Origin: Dysidea avara | Taxonomy: Eukaryota; Porifera; Demospongiae; Dictyoceratida; Dysideidae | NCBI RefSeq assembly: GCF_963678975.1 | Contig: NC_089274.1 | Span: forward strand, 3,894,001-3,958,000 | Length of the DNA: 64,000 nucleotides | Reading direction: 5' to 3' | Shown here: one piece after another, positions 2,289-49,168 of the stretch | Layout: every line of letters starts with the position of its first letter | Position numbering within the stretch: position 1 is the first letter of the stretch | Notes under the pieces: model-generated | What the model was told of the DNA's origin: nothing | Databases searched by the model: none | Seen by the model: only the letters and a program-made list of their open reading frames with translations | Translations under genes and position numbers: made by a program

Positions 2289-5200
2289 TTAAGGATGCCA
2301 TCCATCGTACCTATCATTGTGTTGTCTTCTCGGATAGTCTAAAGGTTGCTGTTGTGGTGGATGTGCTCCATGATGTTTCTCCCAGTCCAACTGCTCGACA
2401 GCGACACGTTCAAACTCTTTATTGCTCTGGTTGCCATAATCAAAAGTTTGCATGTTCGGCAACACTGGGGGTGGCACTTGGTTGTCATAGTCGTATGCAT
2501 GTCTTCCCATAATGGGGCTAGATTTAGTTTCTTGTTTCTCTAACAAACTTGGTGGTTTGGTAGATGAAGATGCTGCATCTGGCTTTACTAGATTAAGAAA
2601 TTGCTGTAGTGTGTTTTTAACACCTTTTTGTTCAGATTGGCTGGTGATGGCCATTGATAGTGTCTGAGCTATTTTCGTCTGCTGGGCTACGGTTAGTTGA
2701 GATAGAATGGCTAACTGCTTCTGTTTGGCCTTGTATATCGCCTGCTGAATATCCTTGTTAGTTTTATCATTTGATTGAAGTTGTTGAATCTGAGCTGTAA
2801 TCTGTGTCAACTCATCTAAATGAGAGTTCTTCATTAGCAAGCTTATTGATGACAAATTTGATTGTCTGTTAGTCGTACTTGGAGCATTGCCAGGTAGCGA
2901 CTCTAGGATGCTGGTATTCAGGGCAGGAGCAGTAGGAAGAGGAACTGACAAAGAACCAAGGGTAGGCCTTCCTGGGGGAACGTCTTTCGGAATTTGTTGC
3001 TGTGGAAACAATGGTGGTGTTCCCTTTGGTTCTTCCTGTAAGCGGTTCTCACTAATTGGGTTGACGCTGTTGTTGTTGTTGCCAGCTACTTCGTTGCGTT
3101 GCTTCTGAGCTTCACGTTCCTTCTTCCGCTTCTGTTTACACCACATCTCGTGGCAGTCTTGATCCCTTGGCAGACTGCAAGAAAATGTAGCAAGTGCTTT
3201 AGAGGCAAAGCACTCACTCACATCACACACATACAGTCACACTATACATACAGCTTTCTGGACACCAACAGAAAAACATTACAAAGATACTATCCCTTCT
3301 GTGCTACATTTAGTCAAGTCTTGCCAGCCAAGGACTGTATGTGAGTAGAATGAATAAAGCATTCCAGTAACATTACAAATGATGGATTGCCAGTATCTTG
3401 GCATGTGGATTTTACACATCTTCACCTACTAAAGCCTTCAAAGCATGTACCAGTTTATATTGCAAATCTCCTATAGTAGTTTACCACTTACCTTTCATGA
3501 GGTAACCAGCTTAGCTCAACTACTAACACAATTCACCAATTGCAGTGTTAACCAGAGTGCTATTTCTCCCCACTCACATACAAGGGACACACTCTGGCTG
3601 GTAAGACCAACACTTACTCTGGTGGAGAAATATCGTCAGGATTAATGTCTAGAAAAGGGTGCTTCAAGGATTCCTCAGCACTAATCCTCTTAGTGGGATC
3701 TAAGGCTAACATTTTGTCCATCAACTCTAGTGCTGGCTCTGGGATGACCCTACAGTGGAACATGGCAACAATTAAATAAGTTACCAAAATTATAAAATAA
3801 CAATAATAAATGCCAAGTGTTTGCAGACAAGTTTCATACCTGGAAAATTCTTCTATTAATCGCCTCCGGTAGTTTTTCTTCAGTTTCATTGTTTTAAAGA
3901 GAGGAAGGGCAATCACGTCTGGCCATTCTGCTGGTGTTGGTGCACCACATACTCGACTGATAACATCTAACTGGAGAATCTCATTGTGGGCTTGGAATAT
4001 TGGCTTCTTTGTAAACATTTCTCCAAGAATGCACCTTTTCAAAACAAAGCACCCAAAAACACAAGAATTACACACAGCATACAATAAAAACACACATATC
4101 TCTACCTGTAGCTGGTTGTAAAATATTTATAAATACAAGCAAACTTGCAGCAATATATACATACAAAACAAATTTATTTACAATTCAAATCTACTCACCC
4201 ACAAGACCACATATCTATAGCAGGCCCATAATGTTCTTGACCAAGTAGCAATTCTGGTGGGCGGTACCACAACGTTATCACATGATTAGTGTAGAGACGA
4301 GTGGGATCATCAGCATGGTAACGCCTTGCAAGCCCAAAATCCCCCAACTTGAGTTTTCCCCTAATGATAATAGCACTGACTAAAAATATTTTCACACAAC
4401 ACACTTACATATTGTTCAACATAATGTTGGAGCATTTTAAATCTCTATGAAGAAATTTCTTGGAGTGACAGTATTCTAGAGCCTCTACTAGCTGTCTGCA
4501 AAGAGATTGGATGTGCTCAAGTGTTAATGTCACCATGCCTGAGTCTAACAAGCCCATCAAATCGTGATCACAATACTCAAATACTAAAAAGAAGGCACCT
4601 GAAATACAGACATAAATAAAATTAATATGCAACAGATACTATGAAATACACTGCATACCCTTGTCCCCACGGAAATCCAGTGCATTTTGTTTGTCCGTTA
4701 CGATCTCTTTCAAGTTGATAATATTGGGATGAGACAACTGACGAAGAATCTTAATTTCTCTGATGGCTGTGATAGGAAATCCTTCTCTCTCACGTTCATT
4801 GTCTGTGCGTACTTTCTTCAATGCTACCATTTCACCTGTGTCAATTTCACGAGCTTTGTACACCTGGAAAGTGTACATATAAACACAAGTACAAAGAAAA
4901 TCCATTCTTACTTGGCCAAAAGCTCCTTCTCCCACCTGAGAGATTATCTCAAAAGCATCCACACATCTTGCTATAGAGTTCTGGACAGTTAGCAGGTTAT
5001 GGGAAGGCTGTGGGGGAGCAACAACCTTTGGTGGTGCAACTACTTTAGGTGGCAGTGTAGCAACTGGTGTGTTAGCTGGCTGTGGAGTACTTGGTGTCAC
5101 TGGAACTGGTGTAGCAGGTGTAGCAGGTTTAGGAGTACTTTCACTTGGTGTAGTCACGACAGCTACTTTAGAAGGAGCCTTGGTATCCAGACTCAACGGC

Positions 5201-6993
5201 ATTACAATTGATGGCACAAACGATGCGGGGACAGTAGGAGCAGGTGACACCATTTGAGGCGTTGATGATGGTACAGGGTTTACAGCTGGCAATGACGGCG
5301 GCGGGACCATAAATGATGGTGGTGGCGGCACAATTCCACCAGGTAATGGTAATATATTGGTGGGAATAGGAGGAATAATAGCACTCGGAATTGGCATAGT
5401 TGTTCTACTTCCTGGCAGTGGTGGAGGAGCAGTAGATGACACAGCTGGTGGCAAGGGTGGCTGAACAACCATCTCGGTGGGGGGTGGAGGAGGAATGTCA
5501 GATGGTAAAGGAGGGGGAGGTATTTCAACTACTGGCGGCGGAGGTGGTGGTACTCTCTCTTCGTGTTTTACCTCGCCATATTTCTGCTCTTCTTGAGTGT
5601 CCATTGATTCCCTCTGCTCACTAACTCTTGATGGTCTTTTATCTTTGAACCTGCCTTCCTCAAATTTGCTAGTTGATCTATTGTTTCTTCTAGGACTGGG
5701 TGATCTTCTAGGGCTGGGTGATCTTCTTCTAGGACTGGGTGATCTTCTTCTAGGACTGGGTGATCTTCTTCTAGGACTGGGTGATCTTCTTCTAGGACTG
5801 GGTGATCTTCTTCTAGGACTAGGTGATCGATCTCTGCCATGATGAGCAGGTGAGTACCTGCCTTTACGGCGGTTGAAATTACTCCTAGGGGGGCTTGGTG
5901 GTGGTGAACGTCGTGAAAATCGCCTTCTAAACTCGGGACTTGGTGATCGAAACCTTCTCCTTGAGTAACCATAATCAGAGTCTGGTGATCTTTCTCTGGA
6001 TTGATATGTTCGGTAATTTCTACTTTCCCTGTATTCTGCTGTGTGTCCATAATAAGCTGGTGATCGAGATTTTCTTCGGTGTACAACTGGAGGTTCTGGA
6101 GTTCGTGGTGAAAAGAAACTTGAGTCTGATGAAATCTCATCATATTTATTGTGCTTGTGACGAGAATGTTTCTTTTTTGAATGACGTTCTGTTGAGCTAT
6201 CATCACTTGGGCTAGCTGATCGATAGCGCTTCGGCTTTGTCTTCCCGTCTGGACTAGGACTGCGATAACGTTTTGGTACCACCTTTGATTTAGATGACTT
6301 TGAGTCCTTACGCTTTGGGCTTGTTTCCTTACGTAGCTTGGGACTTGTGGTTCTTTTGTGGTGTTTTGAACCGGACTCCTTTGGACTAATGTCCCGCTTA
6401 GGACTTACATCTTTGTGCTTTGAACTGGATTCTTTCTTGGGACTTGTGTCTCTTTTCTTGGGACTAGATTCCCTCCTTTTGGGACTAGAATCTGTTCTCT
6501 TTGGACTGGAATCCTTTTTGTGGTGTTTTTTCTTCCTCTTGGGAGATGAAGAATGTTTCCTACCTCTCTCGTGGCTTTCACTCCTGTCTCTTTTCCTACT
6601 TTTTCGCTTCTTTGGGCTCCTTGATTCATGTTTATCCTTTCGTTTCTTCTTTTTGCTAGTACTAGTTCGTGACGTCGATACTGCCGCAGTTGGCTGAGAT
6701 CGGGGCGAGTTCTGCACAGGTGGCGAAGTATCCTTTATTTCACCCGTTTCTTCTTCATCATCACTTATCGGGTCTGTCTTCATTCCAAGATACGGTAACA
6801 ACCTCGTGTCGTCAGCTACCGGTGACTGTCTTTCACGTGAGTCGTTACTGATTGCCTCCACTTCAGGCGTTGGTGTTTTGTACAGCGAGCGGATGCTGGC
6901 CAAGGCGCGATTATCACTTTGCTTTGAGCCGGCATTGTCAGATGGTTCGCTCATCATGTTGTTCAGCCGCAGTTTTGGGCACTGGTATTGCAA
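2289..6993 (-). CDS. CDK12: CDK12/CDK13-type cyclin-dependent kinase
   Basis: Seven exons join in phase to 1,283 codons plus stop: 6993-4912, 4863-4659, 4598-4409, 4360-4199, 4034-3840, 3749-3618 and 3174-2289. CDK12/13 with cyclin K phosphorylates the Pol II CTD at Ser2 in the nucleus and supports long and DNA-repair gene expression. Visible order: an RS/K-rich N terminus, a proline-rich linker, then the kinase with glycine loop [14 protein letters not shown] lysine, the PITAIRE helix diagnostic for this subgroup, [15 protein letters not shown] and [14 protein letters not shown]. The post-kinase [18 protein letters not shown] equals the CDK12/13 extension that contacts nucleotide and cyclin K. 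Human homologues are about 1,500 residues. A sponge has probably one gene for both vertebrate paralogues. The start could be 6993 or the paired ATGs at 6957/6954. Confidence 0.95.
5688..5830 (-). repeat. 21-bp coding minisatellite in the CDK12 RS domain
   Basis: Tandem units of about 21 bp (CTTCTAGGACTGGGTGATCT on the + strand) encode about seven in-frame SPSPRRR repeats. Some units differ by 3-bp steps. Such SR heptads are targets of SR-protein kinases in splicing-associated proteins. All unit changes keep the frame, which suggests selection on the protein (inference). Confidence 0.85.
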
Positions 6994-7141
6994 AAGATCT
7001 TAACAGGATGGCATGAATTCACAGTTCTTAAGTTGGACGGGCACAAAACGCCACATAACAGGCGGATTAACATGGATACTCTTCCATCGCCATTTTGACA
7101 TGACAATGAAAATTAGGATCATGTGACCTTAGGTTTTTAAA
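6994..7141. promoter_or_regulatory. Bidirectional promoter, CDK12/13 and YAE1
   Basis: Only 148 bp separate the outermost CDK12/13 ATG (-) from the YAE1 ATG (+). CGCCATTTT near 7090 is a perfect YY1-type site on the - strand (AAAATGGCG), and the YAE1 start codon lies in a second AAAATGGC. No TATA box is seen. A shared promoter is inferred from spacing. Confidence 0.55.
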
Positions 7142-7733: not shown

Positions 7734-10030
7734 CTACATGGAGGGGATTTGCTCATAGCTGACTGTTTTCTTTTTCTTCCATACAAGGTAGACAACAACA
7801 CCCACAATGCATCCAACAACAATAGCACCGACTATTGATAGGACGATACCCAGGACAACTTTCCTGTCTTTGTCATCCTTGTTCTCTGCTGGCTTCTTGG
7901 TAGTGGTTGGTGTTGGAGTACCAGTGGAATGAATACCAGGTGTGACAGTATGTGTCATGGCATGACTGGTCTTGATTGCGGATGTCTTTGGTGTCTCAGT
8001 ACTGGTTGGCTTTGGTGTCTCGGTACTGGTTGGCATGGCAGATGTAGCCGAAGGAGGGACACAATAATTTGCATCATAAAGACGGAAGGTCTATAAACAA
8101 TCATTACAAATATATAAACATGTAATAATTTTACAGTAGAAAAGTCTCTAAACTCACATAGATATTCCCATCTTGATTGTCATACACAAAGGTTGTATTA
8201 TCAACTGTATCATTACATGTCACCACTACAACTGCTCTGAGTCTATACAGTAATTCAAATACAGTGTAAATCCAATAAAAACAAACACATACAAGGTCAC
8301 TGCAAGTTGATTTCCTGTTTATGGTCATGGCCAAACACACTTGCCTGTGCCATGCGTTCCAGCAATGAGCCTTATCCGAAACTACGTCACAAACATAAAA
8401 TGGCTGCTGTAGTGTGGGGACGTTCGTAAAATTTGTATGGGCGACTATGGGAAGAAAATTTTTGAAAGGAGATATCTCAGCTAAGACGGAAGATATCGAG
8501 CTCTAACCAGTAGGTATGGTTATAAATTAGCTGAAAGAATAGGAATCTAGCATTGTTTTGAAAATCAACCGAAAATCGCTTTTACGCACTTATTGTAATG
8601 TCTTATAGTCATACCTGCTAGTTAGAGTTTGATATCTTCCTTCTTGGCTGAGATATTGCCGTTCAAAAATTTTCTTCCCATAGTCGCCCATACAAATTTT
8701 ACGAATGTCCCCACACTACAGCGGCCATTTTTATGTCTGTGACATAATTTCGGATAAAGCTCATCGTGTCTGATAAGAATCAGACTAAAACAATCACCTG
8801 ATACTTTGAATACGTCGGTTTATAGAATAATGGACTATTCTGGCTTGGCTATAAACCATGCTGGCAGTGGAGGGGAAACAGGAAATCAAGTTGGAGTGGC
8901 CCAAAATACACTCAGCATGGTATAACATGTTTTCTTGGTCTTTCCAGTGCTGAAGACACTATCATTGCCAAACACTAGCACAGGGCAATGGGTTGGTCAT
9001 TATTATAATTAACACTACACATCCCAGGCATCATACCCAAGTGGATTGTAATGATGATACCAGTCACTTCATAGATTTGCAGTGAACACAATAGGCAGCT
9101 GAAGAGCAATGGCATGCATGTAGTCACCACAAGATGAGTAAATCCATTCGTAGCAATAATTTTGTTACAATGTCAGACAATGAAGCAACTATAATTCATC
9201 TTGTTCATAAGAAACCCAGATAAACACCAAAAGTACATTTAGTAACAAATAATTTTATACTAAAATGTGATCCCCAGAAATCTAATGTGGGAAACCACTG
9301 TTATGACTTCAAAATAATATTATGCACTTTGTTACATCATAAACAGTGACCTCAGTATCAAAGGTAAGAACACAGTAGACATTGCACTACAAAGTGTGTT
9401 GTTACATGATCAATACACAACAAAAATGTTTTATACAGGTTAATGGACTCACCCTTGGTCATCTACATACACTACTGACATACTCAGTGGTTCAATCTCC
9501 TCCACATTGTACGTAACATTGTCCAAGTTGCCAATACTGAGTGTAACATTACCAGTTGTGTCCACTACACAAATCTGTAAACGTAGTAAACACAACACTC
9601 ATTAAAGCATGCACCCATCTGTGATAAAACATAACAAAGGAGTCGATGGCTAACAAATGTCTAAATTTATTCCCAGTATACACTCAAGGTATCAATGTAC
9701 ATGTGTGCGTCGTCTTTCCATACCGCTGCGTCCATGTCGCAGTCTTCAAAGCCTGTACCATCGCAGCTGCCATAGTAGTACTCAACACCATTTTCATCTT
9801 CCGCAACTCTGTGGTAAAAAAATAATTACTGGTAAAGGCTAAATGTTTTCCTACACATCACACATTACAACTTACAGTGTGTCGTTCAATGTTAGGTCAA
9901 CGAGAAATGGCTCTGGGGTATTTAGTATACAGCCACACGAATCCAAATCGTCCGGGTTGGGCTCACACACGAAGGCGGCTTGGCATGACAACGCCAATAC
10001 AAGAAAAAGAGACACGAGCAAGACCCTCAT
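7734..10030 (-). CDS. Type I membrane protein with MRH-like domain (gene A)
   Basis: Five exons (10030-9876, 9808-9682, 9574-9453, 8242-8158, 8090-7734) join in phase to 281 residues. Residues 1-18 are a signal peptide (LLVSLFLVLALSCQA). Residues 19-173 hold eight cysteines and motifs of a mannose-6-phosphate-receptor-homology fold: CGC, YYYGSC, GLRAVVVVTC and IYTFRLYDANYC. Residues about 174-240 are a Thr/Pro stalk (STETPK repeats), 241-267 one membrane helix, then a KKKK stop-transfer and a tail ending SYEQIPSM, whose YEQI fits the YxxPhi sorting signal. I infer a lysosomal/Golgi sorting or ATG27-like receptor. The glutamine of the QREY sugar-binding set is not evident, so phosphomannose binding is doubtful. 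Two paralogues follow in the window. Confidence 0.68.
8365..8764. repeat. Long palindromic MITE in an intron of gene A
   Basis: Nearly 400 bp of two arms of about 150 bp in inverted orientation, from ATGAGCCTTATCCGAAAC to the complementary GTTTCGG-like end and GCTCAT. The arms differ by only scattered changes and surround a short core (around 8530-8600). It should form a strong hairpin in nuclear RNA of gene A. Confidence 0.8.
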
Positions 10031-11115: not shown

Positions 11116-14100
11116 ATGGAAGTGAAGTTTATTCTGAGTTATTTGCTAGTGACGAGTTTTAGTAATAGACCGAGTGTTAGTGTGCTACCTGAATTATTGC
11201 CTATATACTGTGCTAACTGTACCTGTGTTTCCAGTAATGGCGCCAAGTTACCGTTCAGCACATTCAGTTCACCAATACAGTTGAGTAGACTTGCGTGTGG
11301 GGGCATAGGATCTATGGTGGGGGTGTGCACGCGGGTGTGTACGTAGCCTGGTTCAGTTTGTAGAGTTGTACATTATATTTTGTTTCACTACTGTGCAGAG
11401 TAATCCATGGCAAATCAGTTTACCAGTTCCCAGCTTGTGTTTACGAGTCAGTGTGCATTAATAATAATACCACATCTTTGGTAAGTAAAATTTGTATGTA
11501 TGCGTGAATGGCAATGGGTTCTAACTTCTATGTGGCTTTTAGGTGTGTACCAATGATACTAGTAACAGCGTTTATAACTCTGAAGGCGTCATGTTGAAGA
11601 GTTGGTTAGATCCGATGGCCCACAGCTTAGTGTTGCAATTTAATGCCAAACAATTGAGGTGTGTTTTTATAGGCATTATGTTTGCCAACTTTCATTATAT
11701 TATATATCACAGTGGTAGTATGCATTGTCAATGTGTCATGTATTACATAAAGGTTAAAAATGAAATTGTAAAGCCTTCTCATTACAGAACTGTCATTGTA
11801 AGTTGCCAACCCAAGCAGCAGTCAACGGATGATGATGATACAATTGTATGTATGGTTGTATTATAGAATGCATTGTATGAATTGCTAGCCTTATAGGGGC
11901 ATAAATACAGAGCTTAACACCTGGTACCATGCTTCATTGTATAATGGCACATGTCGTAGGGTTATTACATGACCTGTCTCATGCAACACTCACTATTTGT
12001 ACTTTGCAGGAGTTTATTGTGACTGACAGCACAGTTTGTAAGTATTTGGAAGATTTCATCTCAGCTGCATCACTGCATTCCTCTCCAGTTCTTTTACTAG
12101 GTGATTCTAAGTGGTGTAATGTCTTCATCTGTGTCGGTGTTGTGTAGTTTAGTATGATAATTTCGTATAAAATTTCATGCTACAATTTTGTATGGTTTTT
12201 TGAGCTACCAAAATTTATTTCATGATTTTTTTGGTTGGTATGTGATGCAATCTAATCACAATACATCAGACACACTTTTTATGGTTAGTATAATAACAGC
12301 ATGTGTATGTTGAACGACTTGCGTGTTTACCATGCGGTCTACAAAAAACCTTTTGCTCTACACCATTTGATTCAATGCACCACAAATGGTAAACAACAGT
12401 GGTTAGAAACTTCAACTTTGGTGAAGCCCTTGCAGACGATGAGTACTTTGTGAAACACAAAAACTGCTTCAATGCATGGAAGTAGGCTGACTGACCCAAA
12501 AGGAATGGAGACAGACGACTTTTCAGCTTTATCATACAATATGCTAGTAGTGTATAGTAGGGACAAGGAAGCTTGATCATTGACCACGATAAAATATCGT
12601 CCAAAAGCCTGTCTCGATTTCTCCTTACAATGATATGGCAGTATTGGTTAGGTCAAATCAAGCTGAAAAGTGTCTTCAGATCAAACAAAACACTTTCATC
12701 AGTTGCTACAGAATTTATTGAATGAAAGTTTCTTCCCGTTACTACTTTATAATTTTATGAACTCTTGGTAAAGAATAAGCTATTTACACACCACTGAGGG
12801 TGCAAATACCAGAAATGAAAGCAGTTTTCTTACTGGTAGGCTTATAAAATTATGCAACTGTTCAAAGTGTTGCTCGGTTGCACAAGATACCACGGGTCAA
12901 TTGGTCACCTTTAAGTATCAAAACATGTACAGGTATTACACTCTCAAGTAGAACAGTAATTAGCCCAATTGTCGCTATGCTCGGGCTAAAATTCTTTAAA
13001 GGGAGGATTGCATGAAATTTTTGATGTTATTTTTTTACATCAATGTGTAGTGTATCTGGTGTGTTTAATGTTTGTAAGATATGTTTTTGAAATAAAAATT
13101 AATTTACTGGTGAAAAAGCAAGCAAAAAAACAAGATTCCAAGCCCGTTTATGGCTTCTTCCATTTTGCAGTCCTGCTATTCATGACGTCACAAGTGTAAG
13201 TGTATAAAGATATGATCATTGGAATACTGTGTAAGTTAGTTGTATATTAGCATCTGTGAAGATAATGTCAAAGTGATGCGTGGCTTATGACTTCTAACGT
13301 ACCTGGCGAAATATTAGCTGCTTTCAATTCCCTAAGGATCCAACTTTGTGAGCAATTTGGACGAGAAAAATTGCAAAGTACTAGAGCTGACTGGATAGGT
13401 CCATCTGAAAACTCTTGTTTATGCAGCAAGCATTTCACAAAAGACTGCTTCGAAAAAGATACTGAATTAGCAGCAGGTTTTGGAATAAAGAAAAGTAGAA
13501 GGAGCCATTTCAACGATTTTTAAAAGGCCGGCGACTCCCTCCTCTGCTCCATCCCAGTCATTAGAAGGTTGTTCCTCGTCACTAAAACAAGCTGTTTCAT
13601 CACACCATGAATGGAATGAGCCACAAAGAAAAGGCAAGCCTTTGAAAAAAGAGAGATCTCGAGTAAGTGTAGTCATGCACAGTGCAAGTTCACTTAGCCA
13701 GCTATAGATTATAGCTATACATGTAGCCATAGCTATGTAGTCCATGCATATTGCAATAACGATGCCTTATGATATACTATTAAGCATACAGATTGTCGAG
13801 GAGGCACTACTTGCAGCTGCATCTTGAAGCATCCAGTTAGAATCAATAAGTGATCCACAGACAGGTGAATCAGATACCCAATCAGGACTTAGCGATTCAC
13901 AGCAGATACTAACTCATCAAACAGGTTATGCCTGAAATGATATCTATATGTAAGTGCTATATGAGGTACCGATAGCTATAGCCCATGGCTATTTTAAATT
14001 GATGTACTGCATTCTATGTATGCAACCAGAAACTCAAGCTAAACCTGAAGTCCACGACTGGAGTACAATGCGACTTGTTGAGTCCAATACCTATGTCATC

Positions 14101-17100
14101 TCACCCCTACCATTAACCTTCACTCCTATTAAGGATGCTGCTGATTTCTACGAGACAGATACTACCACTACTGAAGAGGGAATTGATACATATGCTCCAT
14201 CTGTGATGTCGTAAGTACTCCACAATCGACAAATTTAGTAATATAATTTAAAACCAATACACTCTAGATCTTAAGATTGCTCTGATCAGTCTGGTTCACA
14301 TGCCAAGTACCTATGCTACTTGGCGTTTGATTCAGCTCTATTGCTGCTTTTTTCACTCTGTACTGCTTGTGAGAGTTCTTCCACTAGTTTAATTGTGGGT
14401 CACTACTCTGCATTCGACAAATCTGTCATGAATGCAATCATGTATTTGTGTGGAGGAGTCAACCACATTTTGGTAGAACACCATCTTGACTTCTGCTGCC
14501 ATTCTTTACACTGGTGCACAACCTGCAAAGGCACTGAGATTATTTTCAATATTCAATTGTCCGACTATCACTACATCAACCTTTTTTCGTCATCAAAGAA
14601 CCTACTTACAGCCCAGTATAGACTTTATTTGGGAGAAACATCTGCAAAGGCTACTGAGGGAATTGAAAGAAAACAATAACCAACTGATTATTGGAGGTGA
14701 TAGAAGGGCTGACAGTCCTGGACACAGTGCCAAATTTGGATCATATTCAATGGTTGAGTTAATGAAGAATAAGGTGATAGACATTAAATTAGTTTAGGTA
14801 TATTACATGTGCAAAATATTATGATACTATACTAGAGCAATGAAGTTAAAGGGAGCCATCACATGGAAAAAGAAGGCCGTTTGCAGTGCATAAAATATTT
14901 AGGAGATAATGGTTTTCAGGTGGATACACTGATTACAGATTGTCATAAGCAAATAAACAAATGGCTCTGTGAAACATGTCCATCTGTAAAACACCGTTAT
15001 GATGTGTGGCATGTAGCCAAAGGTAATTCACTGATGTACAGGATTGTCTGAACAAACATGCAGGAAGTTGGAGAAACTAGCTAAGCAGAAGAGCTGTGAG
15101 CTAGTTGGAGAGCATCATTAACCACCTGTACTGGTGTGTCTCCTCAGCAGCAGAAAGCAATGAAGATGTCATTAGGACAAAGTAGTTATCATTAGATAAT
15201 AATGTGCATAGAAACCATAGAAACCATGGAACCAGACATTTTCATAAATGTGATCATGGCAGCGTGATAGAAAGAAGTGGTTTAAGAGACATGAGTTTAA
15301 AGCATTTTCTTAATTGCTTAGCTATATGCATGCTGTTTAATATTGTTGTAGATACCAAAGCAAGCAAGAAATTGGGTGCACTATTGACAAATACCCATCT
15401 TTGTAATGACATGGTCAAGCTGTCCCCGAAATATCAAAAATCACCTGTGGAATCCTTCCATAATGTCATACATTTTGCACCCAAGTCTGTAGCATTTTCA
15501 TATCTAGGAATGCAATGCAGGTAGGCATAAAATGTTTCATCAAAGGGATTCTGTTATACCTAGAACTATGCGGTTGTGGTATCTGATTTTAAGATATGTA
15601 GGATACACTGTGAGATACACAGGACATGAAAACATATAGTTGTCCAGTAACAGAGTCCCTTTTGTGAACCTGTCAAAGTATATTATGATGACTTACATTG
15701 TTTTTATTTAACTAATTAAATTTCCTCACATACAGGTTAAAACTAGCTGCATTTCATTTCAATGAAAATGCTAACAGACCTCAAGCTGTTACCAAGGAAG
15801 GTGATGAATGCTATGACATTATATTCCCTAAGTATAAGAAGGGTGGGTACATTGTAAGAAAAGCTTTGGTAAAGCCAACATATGGTAAGGAATAGATGCA
15901 TGTGTATTCAGTGACGTATGCAAGCACATTTTGGCAGATTACATTGAGGAGCTGATGGCAGAAACAGCAAAACACTGTACAGTTGGAGAAAAATGGGACA
16001 ATTCCAATGCACCAAAGACTCCAGAGGCCCTTGCATCTGCATACGAAAGGCCAGATAAAGCTAAGGCCATTCAAGAACACAAAAGTAGATTTAAAACATG
16101 ATATATTATAGTTATTATATTATGTAATTAGATAACATTAAGAAGGTACAGTTGTAGGATACTTAAATCCTGTACGTGTTGATGAAGGAAACTTATTTCG
16201 TATCTTCGTTACAGCACAGGCAGGCAACACTACTCTCACTGATCTGCCAAGCCTCCCCAACACCATCTTGTCAGTTGTCGATATGCTATAAATTGATATT
16301 GCCTGCAAGATAATTATTGTAACAAGTTCAATTTATTTTAACTTACTCATTGGCTGATTTTACTAGAAAATCACCATACAGCTGATAATATTGAAAACAA
16401 GCAGTTTGCAGGACCCACACATTCAAGCAGATGGCTTCAAAGCCTTCATGTTGAGTGATACACAGTGCACCTGTCTCAGTCATTTTATCTACTGTCTGAT
16501 AAATTTCACAACAGCACGCACACACTCAACCGCAGGTGGCATAATTTCACAATTCTCACATCTGCACCTTGTATGAATACGTATAATACATGAATAGTTA
16601 GCTGTAGCATAATAGAGTAACTATCTAGATTATTTATGCTATGTAGCTAGTGGCTCCTGACTTACTAGTCTATTCATCTACCGAGTACGAATTTTCATTG
16701 CTATCACTGGCTACTGGTTTGAATTGATAAGGGTCAACCGTGTGCTCCATCTCTTCCTCCATGTCGCTAGCTTGCTCACTGACTTCAGATGACTCGGTGA
16801 TTGTACTGGTATCTGAGCTACTGATGCTTGCTGTATCGCTCAAATCGTCATCAAGGATTCTGAAGGCCATGTCATTACAAAACGTGGCAGAGGATGTACG
16901 AAAACAGTCTTTAAAGTCTTACTACACATGAGACAACACTATGCAAGAAGCCCCATGATTTATCATACGCTTACACTTGTGACATCATGAGTAACAGGAC
17001 CGCAAAATGGGGAAGAATCCATAAATGAAATGGAAAAGAAGCCATAAATGAGCTTGGAATCCTGTTTTCCTGCTTGCTTTTTCACCACTAAATTATTTTT

Positions 17101-20100
17101 ATTTTCAAAAATAAATCTTACAAACACTAAACACATTACATACACTACATTGATGTAAAAAAATGGCATTAAAATTTCATGCGATCCTCACTTTAACAAC
17201 TTATTGAAAGTGTCTTCTGATGAAATTTTGCTGTATGGTGACAGCCACTCATGCTCAAGATACAGATGGTAATTCACGTCTATTGTGTATGACATATAGG
17301 GAATTTCTACGTAATTATGTGACCAGATCTGCGATAACCTGGCATAATGGTGCAAGCCTAAATTTTCAGTATAAGCCATTGATTGCAGTGGATAACATAT
17401 TTACATAATTGAAAAAAAATCATAAAATTTTTAAATACTTTGTTCTTTGTGAAGAAAGGGTCTAATGATAAAAACCTGGATATCATCTTATTCGCCTACT
17501 CAAGGGGAGTTCAAAAACCTTCGTTTTATTGCAGTAGACTACAGGATACATGAGTTATGGGCCTTTGTTTACATCACGTTGAAGTGATCATACGTGATTG
17601 ATCTTTCTTCACTGATTCGTCTCTGTATGTAGTGAAGAAAGATGATAGAAGGAGAAACTTACCCAGTAATGGACTCCATTGTTCATGGCAAACACGTTGG
17701 TACAAATTGTAACTCTGTACTGCTTTGTGTTTGTAAGATACAGCCGTTTTTGTAGGTGCCTGTAATTTATTTTTGCAAACTTGCTGTACAAATTGACCTT
17801 TTTGTTGCTACTTTGTAGGGCTGTAACTCCAAAAGCTGTTGGCATACAAGGCTGAAACTTGGCCAAAGCATACACTTGGCTAAGTAGATTATAAATATTC
17901 AATAGTAAAGAATTAGAAAAATGTACTATTATACTGGGTTTTTGCAGATCCAGTCAGATATGACGCGAGTTACTGTATCTATGACTAGTATTCAATAAAA
18001 AGTAATGAAACAAGAGATGAATGATGGTATTATAGCATCAGTGGTGCTCAGATATATGACCTGTGTCAGTACGATGGTCCGCATTCTATTCACCCGGGTC
18101 AGAAGTTGCTCGAAAGAACAGGCCCTTTCAGTTGTCTGGAGCTTAGTCTCGGCTAACAGGATGAAGTAGCTAATACAATTTCCACTTGAGTACTATCCAA
18201 TCACTCACCGATCTCGCCATCCGGCTGAGTCAGTGTGTTCAGAGGAACAAGCCGTCGAGTATCATTCCGTCTATTAAGAAACAAATCTCTTCGTTGATTG
18301 CAGTCCAGGCGTTGGCAAAAGTCAAAGTGATCACCATAGATATCACGTGCAACACTTGAAATTATAAGCGCCCTGCTCTTTCAGCATCATAAGTGCTTTC
18401 TGAAATAATTTTGTGGTGACTACAGAAAAGCGTTGATACAGAAAATTAATGCCTCAGTATGGTTTCGATGCTTGAAGAAGACAACTAACCTGATTGAAGA
18501 TAAAAGGAAAGATAAGGCGCACAGGGCGTACACTAATCGGAACCCCAAAAGGCACATCCCTGGATACTTCACTTTTCAGATGAATAGCTGGGGCGCGCGG
18601 CACCATTTCAGATGCAGTATGCATGGGTTCACCAGTCATAATAATATTTACAAAAAAAAAGTTTACAAACAAGTACACAGAAAAATTTGGAATTTTCAAC
18701 TATAGAGTAGGGAATTTTGGAATTTTCAACTATAGAGTAGGGAATTTTGGATTTTCAACCAGTGAGTTTGTTGTTGTGGCGTAAAATAGTGACCATACAC
18801 TGCTTTGTTTGCGCTCTAAGCTTGCGACTGTGGTCAGTGAGTGAGTGCGACGAAATTTCAAGTTTTTGAAGGTTTTAAAAATATTCTGTATCCAGTCACC
18901 GGTAAGTGTTTTCTTGTTTTTAATGTTGTATTTCATGTTAGATGGACTAATATTATTCCGTAAAGGTGATTTTCGTGTTCACTTACTTTTTCCTGTTGGC
19001 CAATTTGGATTGGTTCGTAAGATCCGGTCACATTTATAATTACTATAGTATATTAATTTTAAAATGAAGTAGGGATCCAAGTGATAAAAAGTAGTGAAAC
19101 AAGAGATGAGTGATGGTATTACAGCACAGCTCAGTGGGAAAATCCCTACATTAGCATGTTATAACTATTATTTTCTTCACTGCCAAAGTAGGGATTTTCC
19201 CACAGAGCTACACTGTAATAATTATTATCATTCATCTCTGTTTCACAACTTTTTATTGCTTGGGTCCCTTAAAATTATTTTTAGTAATTTGTTAATATAA
19301 AGCTGTGACTGTTCTATTAGAGTATCTTGAGTCAGCCTTCACCTACCAGGGGCATGTCACTATTTCATATTTGCCAGTATTATGAATACAGCTACATAAT
19401 AGGGTAGGTGGTCATCGTGATCGAGTAAATAGATTGTTAAGCGGTGTGGTCTCTGTGTTCAATCGTTATTAATCAACCAAGATCGTTGATGGGCTTGGTC
19501 TTGAACTTATCATGAAGTTACAGGTATCTACTGAGCATAAATAAATTTGTAACGTCTACATATGCTGCTCAAGGAAAGTGTTGATAGGGATATGGTTTCG
19601 TTGCATGAAGAAGATGACAAGCAGCCTGATTGAAGATAAAAGGAAAGACAAGGTGCAAAGGGCACACACTCATTGGAACCCCAAAGGCACATGCCACTGG
19701 TGAGTTTGTTATTGTGGTAGTTGGCTGTGTATCGCTTTGTTTGGCCTCCAGCCTTGCGACTGTGGTCAGGCAGCAGGCTGGCAGACAAAAATTAAGAATT
19801 TTGGTGATTTTTAAAGTTATATCCAGCCGCCTGTAAGTGTTTCTTGTATTTTTATGCTGTATTTGATGTTAGATGGACTAATGTTATTCCGTAAAGGTGA
19901 TTTCCAATGTATAAGATGTCTCTAGGATGATTTTAAAGGCAGCATTTTAGGCGGTGTGCGTCAATTTTGGGGGGATCCCTACTTAAGCAGTACTACCGTA
20001 CTGTTTGATAATAGAATATTCAACTGACAAATTTATCTGTTTGTTATTGTAGAGAATTTATATCACTTGTGCTCAAGTTCCACTGTGTAATATTTGTATA

Positions 20101-23166: not shown

Positions 23167-25199
23167 GATGCTATTCGTGGGCTCTGCATGAAGGGGCTTG
23201 TCCACATATTTTAATGAAAGCTCGGTTTAGACAATCTACATGTAAATTGAGTAGCTTTCTATTAGAGTGATTGCTCTATTAGAGTGGTTGGCTGTTCTAT
23301 TACAGTATTAGAGTATCTCGATCTTGTATTGCATTTAATACAAGCACTGAATGAGTTACTCGGAGCACTTAATTTAGCTACACCCAGCAATCTTTCAATT
23401 AATGACATATAAAGATAACGGTGTTTCTAGAGCTCCGGCAGCCGGAGGTGGTTTGCCAATGCTACAGCTCCGTCACTCCATCACGTGATGTGATACTTCG
23501 ATACTTCAACACGCGGTATTTCAGTTGAACTATAGACTGGGCCGCCTGTCGCCTGTACCTGTATCGTGCTGTATGGTTTAAATGGAAGAAAGTGACTCTG
23601 AGCGGGAGGGAGTGTTAGGGACTGTTGAAGAGGAGTGTGACAGCGTAAACTTTGTTCTTGGTGAGAAGTTTTCGTCTTACGAGCAGCTGAAGGAGAAGAT
23701 TACTGCGTACCAACAAGGGAATAATGTCCAGTTAGCCTACACTGACTCGCGGACGCTGGATGCTGCTCGGAAAAGAGCACCGAAAAGAATACAGAAAGCA
23801 AATGAAAAATTACATTATTATTCTTTGCACCTTACGTGCAATCTTGGTGGAAAGCCGTTCCACAGCAAAGGATCTGGCCAGAGACCTTGTCACAGGTATA
23901 GCAACTAAGTGGTCGAAACTTATTTAGCTGATGATGCTACGTATAATACTATGTGCAGCACGATTAAGCAGAATTGCAAAGCTTGTATAAAGCTTAACTT
24001 AAGTGAAGATGGCCAGTACCTGGAGGTCACAGACGTCTGCAATACTCACAATCATGAAGTCAGCAAGGTACAGTATGCTAGAAATTAATTACATCATGCA
24101 TTGGGCTATTTCTATTACGTGTGTACATGTAATTTTTTTTTCTAACAGGCTATTTATGATCATTTACCCCGACAACGAAAGTTGACACCATCTGAACGGA
24201 ATGAAGCTGCTGAATTGTTAAAATTAAGGGTGAACAATAAGCTACTTCAGCAGCACCTATCACAATCAACTGGGAAGATTGTTACCCTAAAAGATATCAG
24301 CAATATAAAGCACTCAATACGGAAAATGGATGGAAATGATTTGGAAAAATTGTCTTCTTATCTGAAGGCAATAGAAGGTAAAACATTTTGTGTAACTGAG
24401 CAATGTACATCACCAAATATTTTATTTATTGTGCATTGCAACTATTCCACATTTTCGCACAAACCTAATTTTACAGTATTAAATCGATACAATGGGTGAA
24501 ATATTTATGAACAATAAAAATTGTGTAAATTTATTGAACACTTGTTTTCATGATGAAGAAAGGTGCTAAGTGCAAAAACATATTTCCCAAAGTTTAAAAA
24601 TCTTTGTTTACTATCATCAATGTTCCAAAAGATATGAAAAATATGAGCATTAGTATGCTCCATGTTTAATAAGCCATTCACTCTCACTTTTTTTCAAATT
24701 TTACCCTTGTAGTGCTGAAAGGCATAAATTACTTATTAATTTTATGAGAAAGTAACAGTGAAAGTCATGTTGATTGTACTTGTAAGTTGTGACTGTTGAA
24801 CTAGGCACATGTAATTTATTTTCAAGTTCCATTTTGTCACTGTACAAATCAATCTTTCTGTTTTTACCAGTTTTCTTTGAACGTTCTTAGTTTATAGGCT
24901 GAAACTTTGGTTGACCATTCCTATGTAGATAAATATGTAATTAAAATGGAGTTAAAAATGCAGATCCGGTCTTATATAGCAGCAGTACTTCTTTGAGCAC
25001 ATAACATAGTTATCTCATATGTACTTGCATAATATATATTATGTACATGCATACTTGAATGCAGAAGTAATAGAGGGGTGTGTAAGCACCCTTCTATATC
25101 TCCTCTAACAGACTGGAAACTGACTTACTAATGGACTAGAAACTTGCCTTAAATATGTATATATGCACTACTTAACTGCATGTGTAGTTGTCTTAAAAC

Positions 25200-25435
25200 A
25201 ATATCAATTGCAGTTATGCTAACCTCTGAACACAATCTTGAAGAGTGCTTGAACTGATATAGGATGCAGATTCAAGGCTTCCAGGCTTCCGAGGTACAGT
25301 CATGGATTTTTCTCCTTTCTGCAACTTTTCAAATACACTTAATTAATATAACATCTTAAACAGGCTGTAGGACCAGGTGTCCTACAAACCTTCAGTTGCA
25401 CTTGTGCTGTAAAGCCTTAAAAGAAATAAATAACC
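25200..25435 (+). repeat. SINE (family 1) nested in MULE copy 1
   Basis: A box-B-like GATTCAAGGCTTCCAGG, a middle part GTCATGGATTTTTCTCC and the diagnostic tail CAGGCTGTAGGACCAGGTGT with an A-rich end. The same insertion is present in copy 2 at 42281-42516, so it predates the duplication. Confidence 0.65.
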
Positions 25436-25644
25436 CCTGCACTTGAAACTAGTTTGAAATCCAGTGGTTAGAAGTAGTATACTCATCATGTTATGGCTGT
25501 AAACCTGTTGCAGTGACGTGTAATCCAAGAAACAAGCTTGGAAGATACCATCAATTATATGCTATAGTATGTATTTTTTGGATTTTTATTCAAATTAACT
25601 GCTGCAATTATTGCTTTTGCAAGTCCCACACACCTGCACATGCC

Positions 25645-25649
25645 TACAC

Positions 25650-25717
<68 letters not shown>
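25645..25717. repeat. (CA)n microsatellite
   Basis: About 70 bp of CA dinucleotides in a MULE intron. It is 2 bp longer than in copy 2 (42726-42796). ORFs across it are artefacts. Confidence 0.95.
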
Positions 25718-25719
<2 letters not shown>

Positions 25720-25964
25720 AACGCCACAGGTGTGAGTGCTTTTTGCATGCCATATGTACAGCGCTGTATATAGCAGGGTTAAAAATCAAGAGTTATTTGG
25801 ATTTTCCAAGTCAACTGAGCCATAATGTTTGTGTCACATTTACAAAATATCGGATAACATGAATGACGTATCAATCAAGTTTTATCACTGCATTGGTTTA
25901 GGTGGATGGCAATGTAAGTGTGCCACTGGTGGGGTTTCATGCAGAATGAATGATTAGTAAAAAT

Positions 25965-26616
25965 GTGACCGAATTTTGGAAAACCGTCGATATACGCACA
26001 ACAGCACTTTTGTAATAAAACGCATTTAAAAACTATGGGTAAAAAATGCAAGCTCCAGAAAAAAAATTATGCAAGTTTTTATCATCTCATCGTCTCGCTG
26101 GTGGGTGAATTAAGCCGCCAATGGATAAATCCTGGGAATCATCGTGTCCGCCTGTCCATAGGGAGTACAAAAATCTTTGTTTCATCTACATACACGAAAG
26201 GATTCCAAAGTTACAGACGTTTGTTTACGTTGCGGTGACGAAAGAATTTACTGACGATCGTTTTTCAGTGAATTTGCCTTCCTTCTCGAACAAAGAAGCA
26301 TGCCTGGGGAAAAAAACTATACCTTGGTGGATGCACGAATTCATGGCGAACACAATGAGCCAAGATTAAATTCCGTACGTCGTTGTATCAGTAAGTTATG
26401 ATGGTTTATGTAAGTGCCTGTAGATTCTTTTCTCGATAGCTTCTGTACATATCAAATTATTTGCTCGTCCGGCTGTCTAGTGCTGTATTTCCAACGCTGC
26501 TTAACTTAGGAAGCTGAAACTTGGCTAGTACATTCCCCTGTCCCTGTAGAAAACAAAGAACAAATAAAATGCATTTAATTTGTGCGGATATCGACGGTTT
26601 TCTAAAATTAGGTCAC
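25965..26616. mobile_element. GTGACC-ended MITE nested in MULE copy 1
   Basis: The left end GTGACCGAATTTTGGAAAAC and the inverted right end GTGACCTAATTTTAGAAAAC, with CCGTCGATATxCGCACAA continuing both. About 650 bp. Related ends occur at 17319, 36560 and 60575. Confidence 0.75.
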
Positions 26617-29259
26617 AAATAATGACTGTATGCAAGCAGCCTATTGCTCCACCCCTTTTCACAGGGTAGTGCTGACAAATTAGTCATTATAGGTGCCTTG
26701 TATGTAGGGGGAACATAACATTTGTAATCAATAACTCAAGAATGGGACTGTGTGATGAAACACGGAATTAGTTTCTAATAAGTTTTGGATGATATCTCGA
26801 ACAGCAAGATTTACATGCTGCTCTCTGTAGGCCTTGGAGCCACACCCACTTATTGCGATTATATTGTTGAAGTAGTTCATCAATAAAAACTTATCTGGTT
26901 TGGAATAATGTACTATTTATGGCAACATTGAAATCAGGTCACTATACTACCAATTCAGATGACCTGGAAGTAACCCAAGGTGTTCATGTTCACTATTTAT
27001 ATCTAAAACTTCTAGCTATATTTTGGGCACCCCACTAGTATAAGTATTAAAATTTCTAGCTATATAGTGTGAGCTATAATAATGATCAGTCAGTAAAATA
27101 ATTGGTATTGGTTTGGCTAAATAAGTAGGTTCATCACCTATGGGCAATATCACACATTTCCAATAAGTGGGCATGACCCACAAAAAAAAGCTGGCAAAGA
27201 ATTATACAATCACTGTGTTTCCCATTGAGTTGTATGATATATAATGGATTAGTGGGGCATGGCTCCACGTATGCCTACAGACATGCAGTAATAGAAAAAT
27301 ATTATCTATGCTACATAGTGAATATGACTCAATAAAGAGCTCAGACCATGATACACCATGATGCATCGATTCCCATGTCACCAAACTAAATGATTAATGT
27401 CACCAATTTGGGTCAGACGTGGATATTCTGTAAACCAGCTCAGAATGTGACCCGGGTGACTCGACCCTGATTCAACGCTGATTTGTACAAGTGTATAATG
27501 TTTTGTTCAATATTTGATATTAGATATAACTGCTGCTATGTATCATAAAATGTAGCTCTTGATCCATACCTTGGTTTTAGGGTTAGTTCCAAAATTACTA
27601 TAGGGGTCAGTGGGTCATCAAGATCAGTTTCAACCCTAATATGTAGAACATATGTACCCGTGTACATACTTGAAGTGCTCTTTAGAGCTATTTCTTCCAG
27701 GATCAACAGTTGAATTTCTGTGTGATGAAGACAAGAATCTTGTTGGTATTGTTTTTCAAGACGGCATTATGAAATCAACCTTTTCTGCTTTCCCAGAAGT
27801 TTTACTGGTGGATGCAACATATAAATTAACAGAATTGAGGATGCCCGTGTACTTGATGATGGTGGTTGACGGAAATGGTCAAAGTGAAATTGTGTGTGCC
27901 TTTGTTACAGTTTTGGAAACTGAGGAGTCAATGGGAAAAATGATACAAGTTTTCAAGTCTCACAATCCAGCTTGGGCCTCCTCAAGAGTTTTAATCTCAG
28001 ACAAAGATTGCAGTGAGAGAGCTGTTTTTGCAAAAGAGTTTCCTGGTATTTGTTTACAGCTTTGTTTATTTCATGTGTTACGAAGTTTTAGACGAGAGAT
28101 TACTTGTGACAAAATGGGAATCAGAGCTGGAGAAAGAGATCATGCTTTGGAAATTTTGTTAAAACTTGCATATTCTAGGTCTGAGTCAGACTACAATCAG
28201 CACTATGAAGTAAGCAAGAATGTGTGATGCATAAGTTGTTACCACTTCATCAGTGTAAATAGCTGATGTGCTTATTGTAGTCATGCATCTGTATTAAAAC
28301 CATACTCACTGTACACATGGCTCAATCATGTATATGTGACCTGCTGAGTGAAAACCCGACTTGCTTGATTTTACAACTACTTTGTTGTTTAGAGAGAATA
28401 AACAATGGGGTGTTAAAGTTGCAGTCTTTTCTGGTCAGTACTATGTACTTTTGGAGCTACAGCACTAGAAAGCAAAATTTGCAACATTGCCGTGAATTGA
28501 GGTATTCATCAAGGTACGATAAACTTACATTTTACAACATAACTTACGTTTTCTTTGTGGTACAAAAATGAAGCAAGGATATTCTCCATGAAAAGGCAAA
28601 TCTAGTGATGTATTACGCATTTCAGTTTATGACATTTTTCACTGATTTGTGAATGCTTTATTAAATATCATCTGGCTACTTACACTGAGTGAGCTACACA
28701 ATAGCTTATTAAGAGGCGTGGTTACCATTTCTTGATTTCTACGGCAATTAAGAGAAGACAATAAGTATCTGCTTAATAGTTGGCTTAAAAGGGTTCCAGC
28801 TAGATAAAAAGAGCTAGTTAACTACACATGTACAACTCACCTATAAGCGAGTTTTAAAAAGGGTTAGGCTAACGTATTTCAAAATGGGCCTATCTAAATT
28901 TGTAGTATTAAATCTGGGTGGCGCATTTCAAAATAGGTTGACCAATTTTAAATCAGTCAAATTTCGAAGAGGTTCATAACACTATTGTATCATGTGTATT
29001 ATGCATGTAGGTATGTTATGTGACTTCATGGTGTTGTTATTATAGGATTTACGGCTTGCTGGTCTCACCACAGTTTTTACTTACTACAATGATAATTGGC
29101 ATCCCATTCGAGAGGAATGGGTAGAATGTTTTAAGAACACAGCCTTCACCCTGGGCGAGAGGACAAACAACAGATTAGAGAGTATCAATGCTAAAGTGAA
29201 GAGTGTTTGTGCAAGGTATCTGCATGCTTAAATGCATACCTAGACAAGTATAAGGGAAA

Positions 29260-29470
29260 ATTAAGAATTGTAAATTCAATTAGGGATCATAGAAAATAGT
29301 AGGAGGTCACCTACACTTGCAGATAAACTAGTGGACATTTAATCCATAATTCAGTCATGGATACAAGGATAAATGTTCACTAACATATTTGCAGGTGTAG
29401 GCAACCTCCCTTGTTCCCTACTTTTTTACTACTGTATGATCCCTAGTCAAACTTTAAAACTCTTATATAT
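29260..29470. repeat. Degenerate hairpin MITE in MULE copy 1
   Basis: Relative of the 37796-38079 hairpin: TTAGGGATCATAG, CTAGTGGACATTTAATCC, then the inverted GCAGGTGTAGGCAACCTCCC and TATGATCCCTA. The arms are more diverged than at 37.8 kb. The same copy lies at 46339-46549. Confidence 0.65.
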
Positions 29471-31092
29471 GTACTTGTTTGTTTACATTTTCGCCAGAGG
29501 TAATGTTTATGACTGAAAATGTGTCCCAACTATAAATTATTGTCTTGAAACCATTACACTTTTCTTTCAGCTATTTTCAGCTCATTTCACAGTGCTACAA
29601 ACAAAAAACAGTAGAAGTGCCTCTGCAATCAATCCAGTAACCATGGAAAATACGGATGATTCCTGTTTACAATTGTATGGAAGCCATTGCGCTACCGCAA
29701 TCAACACCTTGTTATCACAAATTGATACCTTCGGCTGTTAACAAAAAGAAATGGGACACAAAGGAGGACAAAGGTAAGTCCATGATGTGTACATTGTACA
29801 TACTGTGGTGCATCTGTCAAGCTAAAGCAACATTGAATAAAATAGCTAGCTATTATCGAGTTGCACTTGTCTGAAGGCATCAGGCAGGCAGTAGAAAATT
29901 GCATTAAACAAAAATTTTTAAAAATCTATTGGAAACATTCTGAAGGCACTTTTGGGCTTGGTTATACCTAACCAATACTGCCAAGGCGACAGGATGGTAT
30001 TGTGAAGATGATTTTTGGATGATATTTTTGGCCAACTCTCCATGTTCCCTAATATAAAGCACAGTATACCGCATAATGTATGATACACAATTCATATTCA
30101 AGGACTAAACATTAAAACATATCTATTGTGATTATACGTGTGGATCATTTACTGTATGAGTAACTACCATGGCTCACCATGTTATAGGGACTTTTCTAGA
30201 CGGTTTCACTCTGTTGTAATTATTATCCAAGTTAGGGAAAGAATGATAACTAAGAAATATTATATAAGTGTACTTGCTTATTACCATGTACTGTATACTG
30301 TACTAGTGCAAATCGTTGCACGGTAGTATGATTGCAATGATTTCAACATTTCTCATCAATGTATGTACCATGATCACTTATACCTATTCTTATACTGTTT
30401 AATTACTCAGTTTGCATGCCTCAACCAGCACATCCTTAATATATACCTCTTGTGTTCTGCTCGTGGATAGATGAATACAAAATTATATATGTATATTTTA
30501 TGTAATATCCTAATTTAAATTATAAATCATTGTACAGGTACAGCACACTCATGCATTTTTTTGAACACTTTTGTGCCCTGCTGTCAACTTTACGGAATGA
30601 GAGGGATCACTGCACATTGATGGCTATGGTCAAGAAAAGGATTGATATGAAAGATCCTGTAGAAATTGAATACTCCTCAGTTCTCACACCTTATGCATTA
30701 AATTATGTATCCAAGCAGCTTTCATTGCGGAGGAAGGTCACCATAGTCTCAGAACATGATCGAGAATGCCATATTACATCATCGGAAGGGATTTTGAAGG
30801 TGACAGTCAACGGATGCCACTGTGCATTTTGGAACACCACCAACCTCCCTTGTCGTCATATTTTTGCTGTGCGAGAAAGAAAGAAACACCCTTTATTTAC
30901 TCCCTTACTTCTTGCGGAACGTTGGACAAAGGATTATATGAGAGATGCTTACTATAAAAAATCAGAATTAACAGTTGAGGCTTCAAGCAGTGTGAGTAGT
31001 ATATGATTATACAGCTATAAAATTCACTATAATTGTATGTACAGATTTCAAGTATTGGGCATGGACCACAACGGTCATGTTTAACACAGCAC

Positions 31093-31292
31093 NNNNNNNN
31101 NNNNNNNNNNNNNNNNNNNNNNNNNNNNNNNNNNNNNNNNNNNNNNNNNNNNNNNNNNNNNNNNNNNNNNNNNNNNNNNNNNNNNNNNNNNNNNNNNNNN
31201 NNNNNNNNNNNNNNNNNNNNNNNNNNNNNNNNNNNNNNNNNNNNNNNNNNNNNNNNNNNNNNNNNNNNNNNNNNNNNNNNNNNNNNNNNNNN
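31093..31292. other. Assembly gap (200 N)
   Basis: A run of 200 undetermined bases. It interrupts MULE copy 1 within the exon after the SWIM finger. What follows is not MULE sequence as seen in copy 2. Confidence 0.99.
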
Positions 31293-37795: not shown

Positions 37796-38079
37796 ACAAG
37801 TAGAAGCAAAAATTTGTAATTTTACATTCGATTAGGGATCATAGTAATAAAAAGTAAAGAAACAAGGTGGTTGCCTATATATGCCTGCAAATGTACTAGT
37901 GGACATTTAATCCGTAATTCAGTCTTCAGAACCTCTGTTGTACAGCTATATACTGAATTAGGGATTAAATGTCCACTAGTACATTTGCAGGCATATATAG
38001 GCAACCACCTTGTTTCTTTACTTTTTATTACTATGATCCCTAATCGAATGTAAAATTACAAATTTTTGCTTCTACTTGT
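37796..38079. mobile_element. Near-perfect long hairpin element
   Basis: Arms of about 127 bp (37796-37922 and 37953-38079) are nearly identical in inverted orientation around a 30-bp loop. Blocks include CGATTAGGGATCATAGTAAT, GGTGGTTGCCTATATATGCC and CTAGTGGACATTTAATCC. Fragments of the family lie at 29260, 46339 and 55830. The arm identity argues for recent arrival. Confidence 0.88.
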
Positions 38080-40365: not shown

Positions 40366-42280
40366 TTGATAACAATATAATATATTTAGTTAAGATCTGC
40401 CAACAGCTTCAGAATACATGCATTATAATGCATAATACCTTATGATAAAATACTATATTCACTTAAGTGATTACATTAAGGTTATAAGCATATATATAAC
40501 GGTGTTTCTAGAGCTCCGGCAGCCGGAGGTGGTTTGCCAATGCTACAGCTCCGTCACTCCATCACGTAATGTGATACTTCGATACTTCAACACGCGGTAT
40601 TTCAGTTGAACTATAGACTGGGCCGCCTGTCGCCTGTACCTGTATCGTGCTGTATGGTTTAAATGGAAGAAAGTGACTCTGAGCGGGAGGGAGTGTTAGG
40701 GACTGTTGAAGAGGAGTGTGACAGCGTAAACTTTGTTCTTGGTGAGAAGTTTTCGTCTTACGAGCAGCTGAAGGAGAAGATTACTGCGTACCAACAAGGG
40801 AATAATGTCCAGTTAGCCTACACTGACTCGCGGACGCTGGATGCTGCTCGGAAAAGAGCACCGAAAAGAATACAGAAAGCAAATGAAAAATTACATTATT
40901 ATTCTTTGCACCTTACGTGCAATCTTGGTGGAAAGCCGTTCCACAGCAAAGGATCTGGCCAGAGACCTTGTCACAGGTATAGCAACTAAGTGGTCGAAAC
41001 TTATTTAGCTGATGATGCTACGTATAATACTATGTGCAGCACGATTAAGCAGAATTGCAAAGCTTGTATAAAGCTTAACTTAAGTGAAGATGGCCAGTAC
41101 CTGGAGGTCACAGACGTCTGCAATACTCACAATCATGAAGTCAGCAAGGTACAGTATGCTAGAAATTAATTACATCATGCATTGGGCTATTTCTATTACG
41201 TGTGTACATGTAATTTTTTTTTCTAACAGGCTATTTATGATCATTTACCCCGACAACGAAAGTTGACACCATCTGAACGGAATGAAGCTGCTGAATTGTT
41301 AAAATTAAGGGTGAACAATAAGCTACTTCAGCAGCACCTATCACAATCAACTGGGAAGATTGTTACCCTAAAAGATATCAGCAATATAAAGCACTCAATA
41401 CGGAAAATGGATGGAAATGATTTGGAAAAATTGTCTTCTTATCTGAAGGCAATAGAAGGTAAAACATTTTGTGTAACTGAGCAATGTACATCACCAAATA
41501 TTTTATTTATTGTGCATTGCAACTATTCCACATTTTCGCACAAACCTAATTTTACAGTATTAAATCGATACAATGGGTGAAATATTTATGAACAATAAAA
41601 ATTGTGTAAATTTATTGAACACTTGTTTTCATGATGAAGAAAGGTGCTAAGTGCAAAAACATATTTCCCAAAGTTTAAAAATCTTTGTTTACTATCATCA
41701 ATGTTCCAAAAGATATGAAAAATATGAGCATTAGTATGCTCCATGTTTAATAAGCCATTCACTCTCACTTTTTTTCAAATTTTACCCTTGTAGTGCTGAA
41801 AGGCATAAATTACTTATTAATTTTATGAGAAAGTAACAGTGAAAGTCATGTTGATTGTACTTGTAAGTTGTGACTGTTGAACTAGGCACATGTAATTTAT
41901 TTTCAAGTTCCATTTTGTCACTGTACAAATCAATCTTTCTGTTTTTACCAGTTTTCTTTGAACGTTCTTAGTTTATAGGCTGAAACTTTGGTTGACCATT
42001 CCTATGTAGATAAATATGTAATTAAAATGGAGTTAAAAATGCAGATCCGGTCTTATATAGCAGCAGTACTTCTTTGAGCACATAACATAGTTATCTCATA
42101 TGTACTTGCATAATATATATTATGTACATGCATACTTGAATGCAGAAGTAATAGAGGGGTGTGTAAGCACCCTTCTATATCTCCTCTAACAGACTGGAAA
42201 CTGACTTACTAATGGACTAGAAACTTGCCTTAAATATGTATATATGCACTACTTAACTGCATGTGTAGTTGTCTTAAAAC

Positions 42281-42516
42281 AATATCAATTGCAGTTATGC
42301 TAACCTCTGAACACAATCTTGAAGAGTGCTTGAACTGATATAGGATGCAGATTCAAGGCTTCCAGGCTTCCGAGGTACAGTCATGGATTTTTCTCCTTTC
42401 TGCAACTTTTCAAATACACTTAATTAATATAACATCTTAAACAGGCTGTAGGACCAGGTGTCCTACAAACCTTCAGTTGCACTTGTGCTGTAAAGCCTTA
42501 AAAGAAATAAATAACC
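42281..42516 (+). repeat. SINE (family 1) nested in MULE copy 2
   Basis: Same insertion and sequence as at 25200-25435: GATTCAAGGCTTCCAGG, then CAGGCTGTAGGACCAGGTGT and an A-rich tail. Confidence 0.65.
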
Positions 42517-42725
42517 CCTGCACTTGAAACTAGTTTGAAATCCAGTGGTTAGAAGTAGTATACTCATCATGTTATGGCTGTAAACCTGTTGCAGTGACGT
42601 GTAATCCAAGAAACAAGCTTGGAAGATACCATCAATTATATGCTATAGTATGTATTTTTTGGATTTTTATTCAAATTAACTGCTGCAATTATTGCTTTTG
42701 CAAGTCCCACACACCTGCACATGCC

Positions 42726-42730
42726 TACAC

Positions 42731-42796
<66 letters not shown>
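42726..42796. repeat. (CA)n microsatellite
   Basis: Counterpart of 25645-25717, 2 bp shorter. Confidence 0.95.
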
Positions 42797-42798
<2 letters not shown>

Positions 42799-43043
42799 AA
42801 CGCCACAGGTGTGAGTGCTTTTTGCATGCCATATGTACAGCGTTGTATATAGCAGGGTTAAAAATCAAGAGTTATTTGGATTTTCCAAGTCAACTGAGCC
42901 ATAATGTTTGTGTCACATTTACAAAATATCGGATAACATGAATGACGTATCAATCAAGTTTTATCACTGCATTGGTTTAGGTGGATGGCAATGTAAGTGT
43001 GCCACTGGTGGGGTTTCATGCAGAATGAATGATTAGTAAAAAT

Positions 43044-49030: not shown

Positions 49031-49168
49031 AAATCCTATTTGGGCAAGACTAATAAAATACAAGAGGTTGTATCATGTCTCACACTTGAAGGTATTGTTA
49101 GCCAACCTTCACCCGGCAAACCTTCACCCGGCAGGAATAGTTGGCATTTGCTTCCTGAGTTAACACCT

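Follow-up and report, generated by a model that had tools for sequence, protein, structure and literature searches.

The locus described here is very probably a decayed DNA transposon of the Kol0 group of the Kolobok superfamily that carries, beside its transposase gene, a KolX gene whose product would resemble the C-terminal ballast domain of P2X7. The element spans positions 13000-17192 of the window, the whole 64,000-nucleotide stretch of DNA that was analyzed. The Kol0 placement follows from the published description of this group, and the Kolobok call is based on a single copy in which the THAP, Mutator and MULE matches all fall under their cut-offs and the DDE motifs were recognized by visual inspection. 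An initial annotation of this DNA had proposed that Kolobok elements, if the ballast domain is their regular cargo, offer a source for the P2X7 tail and for the many orphan copies of the domain in invertebrates. The locus agrees with this proposal as regards the P2X7 tail, and the interpretation is right but was already in print, having been published by Kojima and Bao in 2022 (PMC9587614).

The TTAA target site duplication that characterizes the Kolobok superfamily is found on both sides of the element. Between these sites lie terminal inverted repeats (12996-13205 against 17196-16965) that are 77.4% identical over 235 columns in a blastn alignment and measure 210 nt and 232 nt with the TTAA included, so that the TTAA-flanked inverted repeats of the initial annotation are borne out. 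The element starts with AG and ends with CT, in keeping with the rule that Kolobok termini are 5'-RR and YY-3', as stated by Kojima and Bao (PMC9587614). When the element was compared with the window by blastn (E up to 1e-3), only the element itself and its own inverted repeats were returned, and thus no second copy was found within the window.

Table. Features of the Kolobok-like element, in window coordinates.
Feature	Position	Strand	Basis
TTAA target site, left	12996..12999	.	direct sequence reading
Left terminal inverted repeat	13000..13205	+	inverted repeats I1, I2, I5, I6 and blastn; inner end approximate
ORF with THAP-like stretch, putative transposase start	13266..13523	+	Pfam THAP 20.7 bits, cut-off 23.9
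Putative transposase core pieces with GGDRRADSPGHSAKFGSY, TDCH, DVWH	14477..15051	+	ORFs; Pfam matches under cut-off; motifs by eye
Putative transposase C-terminal pieces	15186..16101	+	ORFs; stop ends at 16101; motif by eye
KolX-like exon 3, internal frame change, C-terminal signature, stop	16138..16303	-	acceptor by eye
KolX-like exon 2, cysteine-rich, internal frame change	16343..16571	-	approximate ends; splice sites by eye
KolX-like exon 1, acidic leader	16682..16870	-	donor site by eye; no Pfam match
Right terminal inverted repeat	16965..17192	-	inverted-repeat listing and blastn; inner end approximate
TTAA target site, right	17193..17196	.	direct sequence reading

The plus strand of the element holds what appear to be the motifs of a Kolobok transposase: GGDRRADSPGHSAKF, TDCH, DVWH and SPVESFH, all DDE or C/DxxH motifs identified by eye, with SPVESFHNV a possible site of the last catalytic E. 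In Kolobok transposases a zinc finger lies between C/DxxH and this last E (PMC9587614). The core pieces matched Pfam Mutator at 14.1 bits and MULE at 19.2 bits, both under the cut-off, as was the THAP match of the first ORF, and a Pfam scan of three C-terminal pieces gave no match. The sequence FQFPKDPTL, which likely belongs to a more N-terminal part of the transposase, sits in a different frame, such that the THAP-like stretch, this likely N-terminal part and the downstream sequence occupy three reading frames. Judged by eye and against the THAP pattern, the transposase gene therefore appears to be broken in this copy, with small introns or sequence errors as alternatives to true damage.

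On the minus strand lies a gene of one acidic exon and two cysteine-rich exons, with its ATG at 16870 and the end of its stop at 16138. This gene is convergent to the transposase gene, and the two stops are separated by 36 bp, just as the initial annotation had placed them. Both cysteine-rich exons change frame. In exon 2, CRCENCEIMPPAVE and CACCCEIYQ..SANE belong to different minus-strand frames, and in exon 3 AYRQLTRWCWG and LGRSVRVVLPACAVTKIRNKFP..GFKYP are likewise read in separate frames. Because of these changes this copy looks like a pseudogene, the alternative being sequencing or assembly errors at two places. The gene had also been taken for a stand-alone protein, and this claim stands in part: the acidic leader and two cysteine-rich exons are present, but no intact reading joins them. 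Since the gene is broken, the claim would hold for its ancestors rather than for this copy.

A gene of this kind within a Kolobok element has been described. Kol0, the first-described Kolobok group, encodes a transposase together with KolX, and according to Kojima and Bao (PMC9587614) KolX is clearly similar to residues 476-595 of human P2X7, the ballast domain, which binds two zinc ions through seven conserved cysteines. The same authors report Kol0 from diverse animals, including sponges, derive P2X7 from a P2X4-like gene to which KolX became fused, and regard Nanor as a likely domesticated KolX (PMC9587614). Within the literature that was searched, the word KolX was confined to this one paper. 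An independent survey by Rump et al. in 2020 found the ballast domain across animals, including a sponge, with neighbor genes of the ballast copies common to sponge, mollusc, arthropod and echinoderm (PMC7016195); the string "transpos" is absent from its main text. Conservation of neighbors across phyla, as described there, favors some of the ballast copies as host genes.

One could propose that a host ballast gene of the nanor type entered this one Kolobok copy and is not regular cargo of the family. The single copy seen here would fit such an event, as would the description of ballast proteins as genes in many animals, some with neighbors common between phyla (PMC7016195). We nevertheless consider this origin highly improbable, because Kol0 elements are described with such a gene (PMC9587614) and because the gene, in convergent orientation, has the transposase stop on one side and the right inverted repeat on the other. 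Furthermore, no pair of repeats of at least 16 nt brackets the KolX-like gene alone.

Similarity of the gene to the P2X7 tail, including its cysteine-rich exons, was proposed in the initial annotation and is confirmed by several comparisons. A read-through of the gene, made by linking its pieces over both frame changes and one intron and inserting X at each joint, matched Pfam P2RX7_C (PF20478) at 30.5 bits (E 4.1e-7), above the gathering cut-off of 23.5; the exon 3 piece alone scored 16.3 bits, which is under this cut-off. In a search of the PDB to E 10, four of the seven sequences returned were P2X7 chains (E 0.00032 to 0.0042), while the remaining three carried unrelated names (E 0.34, 0.72 and 1.2). 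Additionally, when P2X7 segment 504-595 was searched by tblastn against the 64 kb of the window without any joining, 16230-16156 ranked first at E 5.7e-4, ahead of the next place at E 0.28. Local alignment of the joined form with the P2X7 segment scored 94, a score that none of 2000 shuffles of this segment reached (maximum 50). Two of the zinc-binding cysteines, C506 and C572, were aligned computationally, whereas the places of CxCxxC and CC relative to the P2X7 cysteines were assigned by visual comparison over a frame change. Chance similarity, by which the gene would hold no ballast domain at all, has next to no probability: the joined match does use pieces picked from several frames and exon 2 appears in the unjoined tblastn search only at E 8.1, but the unbroken piece at 16230-16156 is the best place for the P2X7 tail in the window and the joined form exceeds the Pfam cut-off.

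The same alignment bears on the guanine-nucleotide site of P2X7. In rat P2X7 the residues concerned are R546, H547, R574, R578 and K583, of which R546 and R578 are the sole ones reported as conserved outside the deuterostomes (PMC7016195). In the KolX-like gene only R578 is conserved among the five; R574 is replaced by V and K583 by S in the alignment, and R546 by Q and H547 by F as judged by eye. The loss of R546 says little, because this copy is decayed. It is conceivable, though we hold it to be rather unlikely, that KolX is an ancient accessory of transposition and that the ballast domain originally served through its zinc-cysteine core and not through a guanine-nucleotide site; rat P2X7 would then have acquired its full nucleotide site after capture.

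Relatives of either gene were also sought in the window and in collections of viral, phage and prokaryote sequences. Searches of the window by tblastn with exon 2, exon 3 and the transposase pieces gave nothing further better than E 0.15. A DNA pattern for the motif DSPGHSAKFG matched the window once, at 14711-14739, and had zero matches in viral_contigs. In the collection scans, which use a single sequence, detect close relatives only and possibly leave out records of the window's own genome, a transposase piece gave 11 pattern stretches in viral_contigs, none of them confirmed. With the KolX read-through, the same type of scan gave 11 stretches in viral_contigs and 204 in genome_contigs, again with none confirmed, and no relative in phages.

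Several other features were observed in the window. Two copies of about 7.7 kb (23409-31092 and 40490-48171) are 99.88% identical, and the first stops where a stretch of 200 N begins (31093-31292); this pair is either an assembly artefact or a recent duplication. The same ZSWIM/MULE-like ORF occurs in both (27640-28227 and 44719-45306), the Pfam scan having been applied to the first only. A 79 bp tandem array lies at 49168-49721, with self-matches at offsets of 79, 158, 237, 316, 395 and 474 that are 96.9-98.7% identical. Four stretches match their own reverse complement (8365-8764 at 80.5%, 37796-38079 at 92.7%, 63137-63376 at 85.0% and 19071-19269 at 76.1%) and are perhaps small hairpin-like transposons. 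A CDK12/13-like kinase ORF, arginine-serine-rich in its N-terminal part, is located at 4639-6999, and its best PDB match is cyclin-dependent kinase 13 (E 1.1e-28, ORF residues 678-782); the window also contains a PHD-finger ORF. Together with the ZSWIM-like ORF, these genes make an animal the most likely host of the element. A search of the window against Rfam gave no match at the gathering score.

Based on what is known of the superfamily, an intact form of the plus-strand gene would encode a THAP/DDE transposase that uses the inverted repeats to move the element from one TTAA site to another. An intact form of the convergent gene would encode the small protein KolX, composed of an acidic leader and a ballast domain that binds zinc, and its likeliest role would be that of an accessory factor in transposition or in the control of transposition. 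With two frame changes in the KolX gene and a transposase that appears broken as well, the present copy should yield neither protein. The locus adds another case to the published association of Kolobok elements with the P2X7 tail, reached without knowledge of that association. It also cautions that genes annotated in invertebrates as orphan ballast genes may belong to transposons.

Compared by description with the Kol0 elements of Kolobok-1_XT type (PMC9587614), the element has the same TTAA target sites and 5'-RR/YY-3' ends and apparently the same pair of genes, one for a transposase and one for a protein that resembles the ballast domain of P2X7; it differs in being a broken copy. Its second gene is of KolX type by the P2RX7_C match of the read-through, although the gene itself is broken. 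With the C-terminal ballast domain of P2X7 (PF20478) this gene shares the C-terminal signature and what appears to be the cysteine pattern, and its read-through scores above the Pfam cut-off, but it has no visible channel part and retains just one (R578) of the five guanine-nucleotide residues. Nanor and further ballast (ZCD) proteins of the stand-alone kind, which are known from a sponge too, likewise have the ballast domain at their C-terminus (PMC7016195). They differ in being described as genes in that study.
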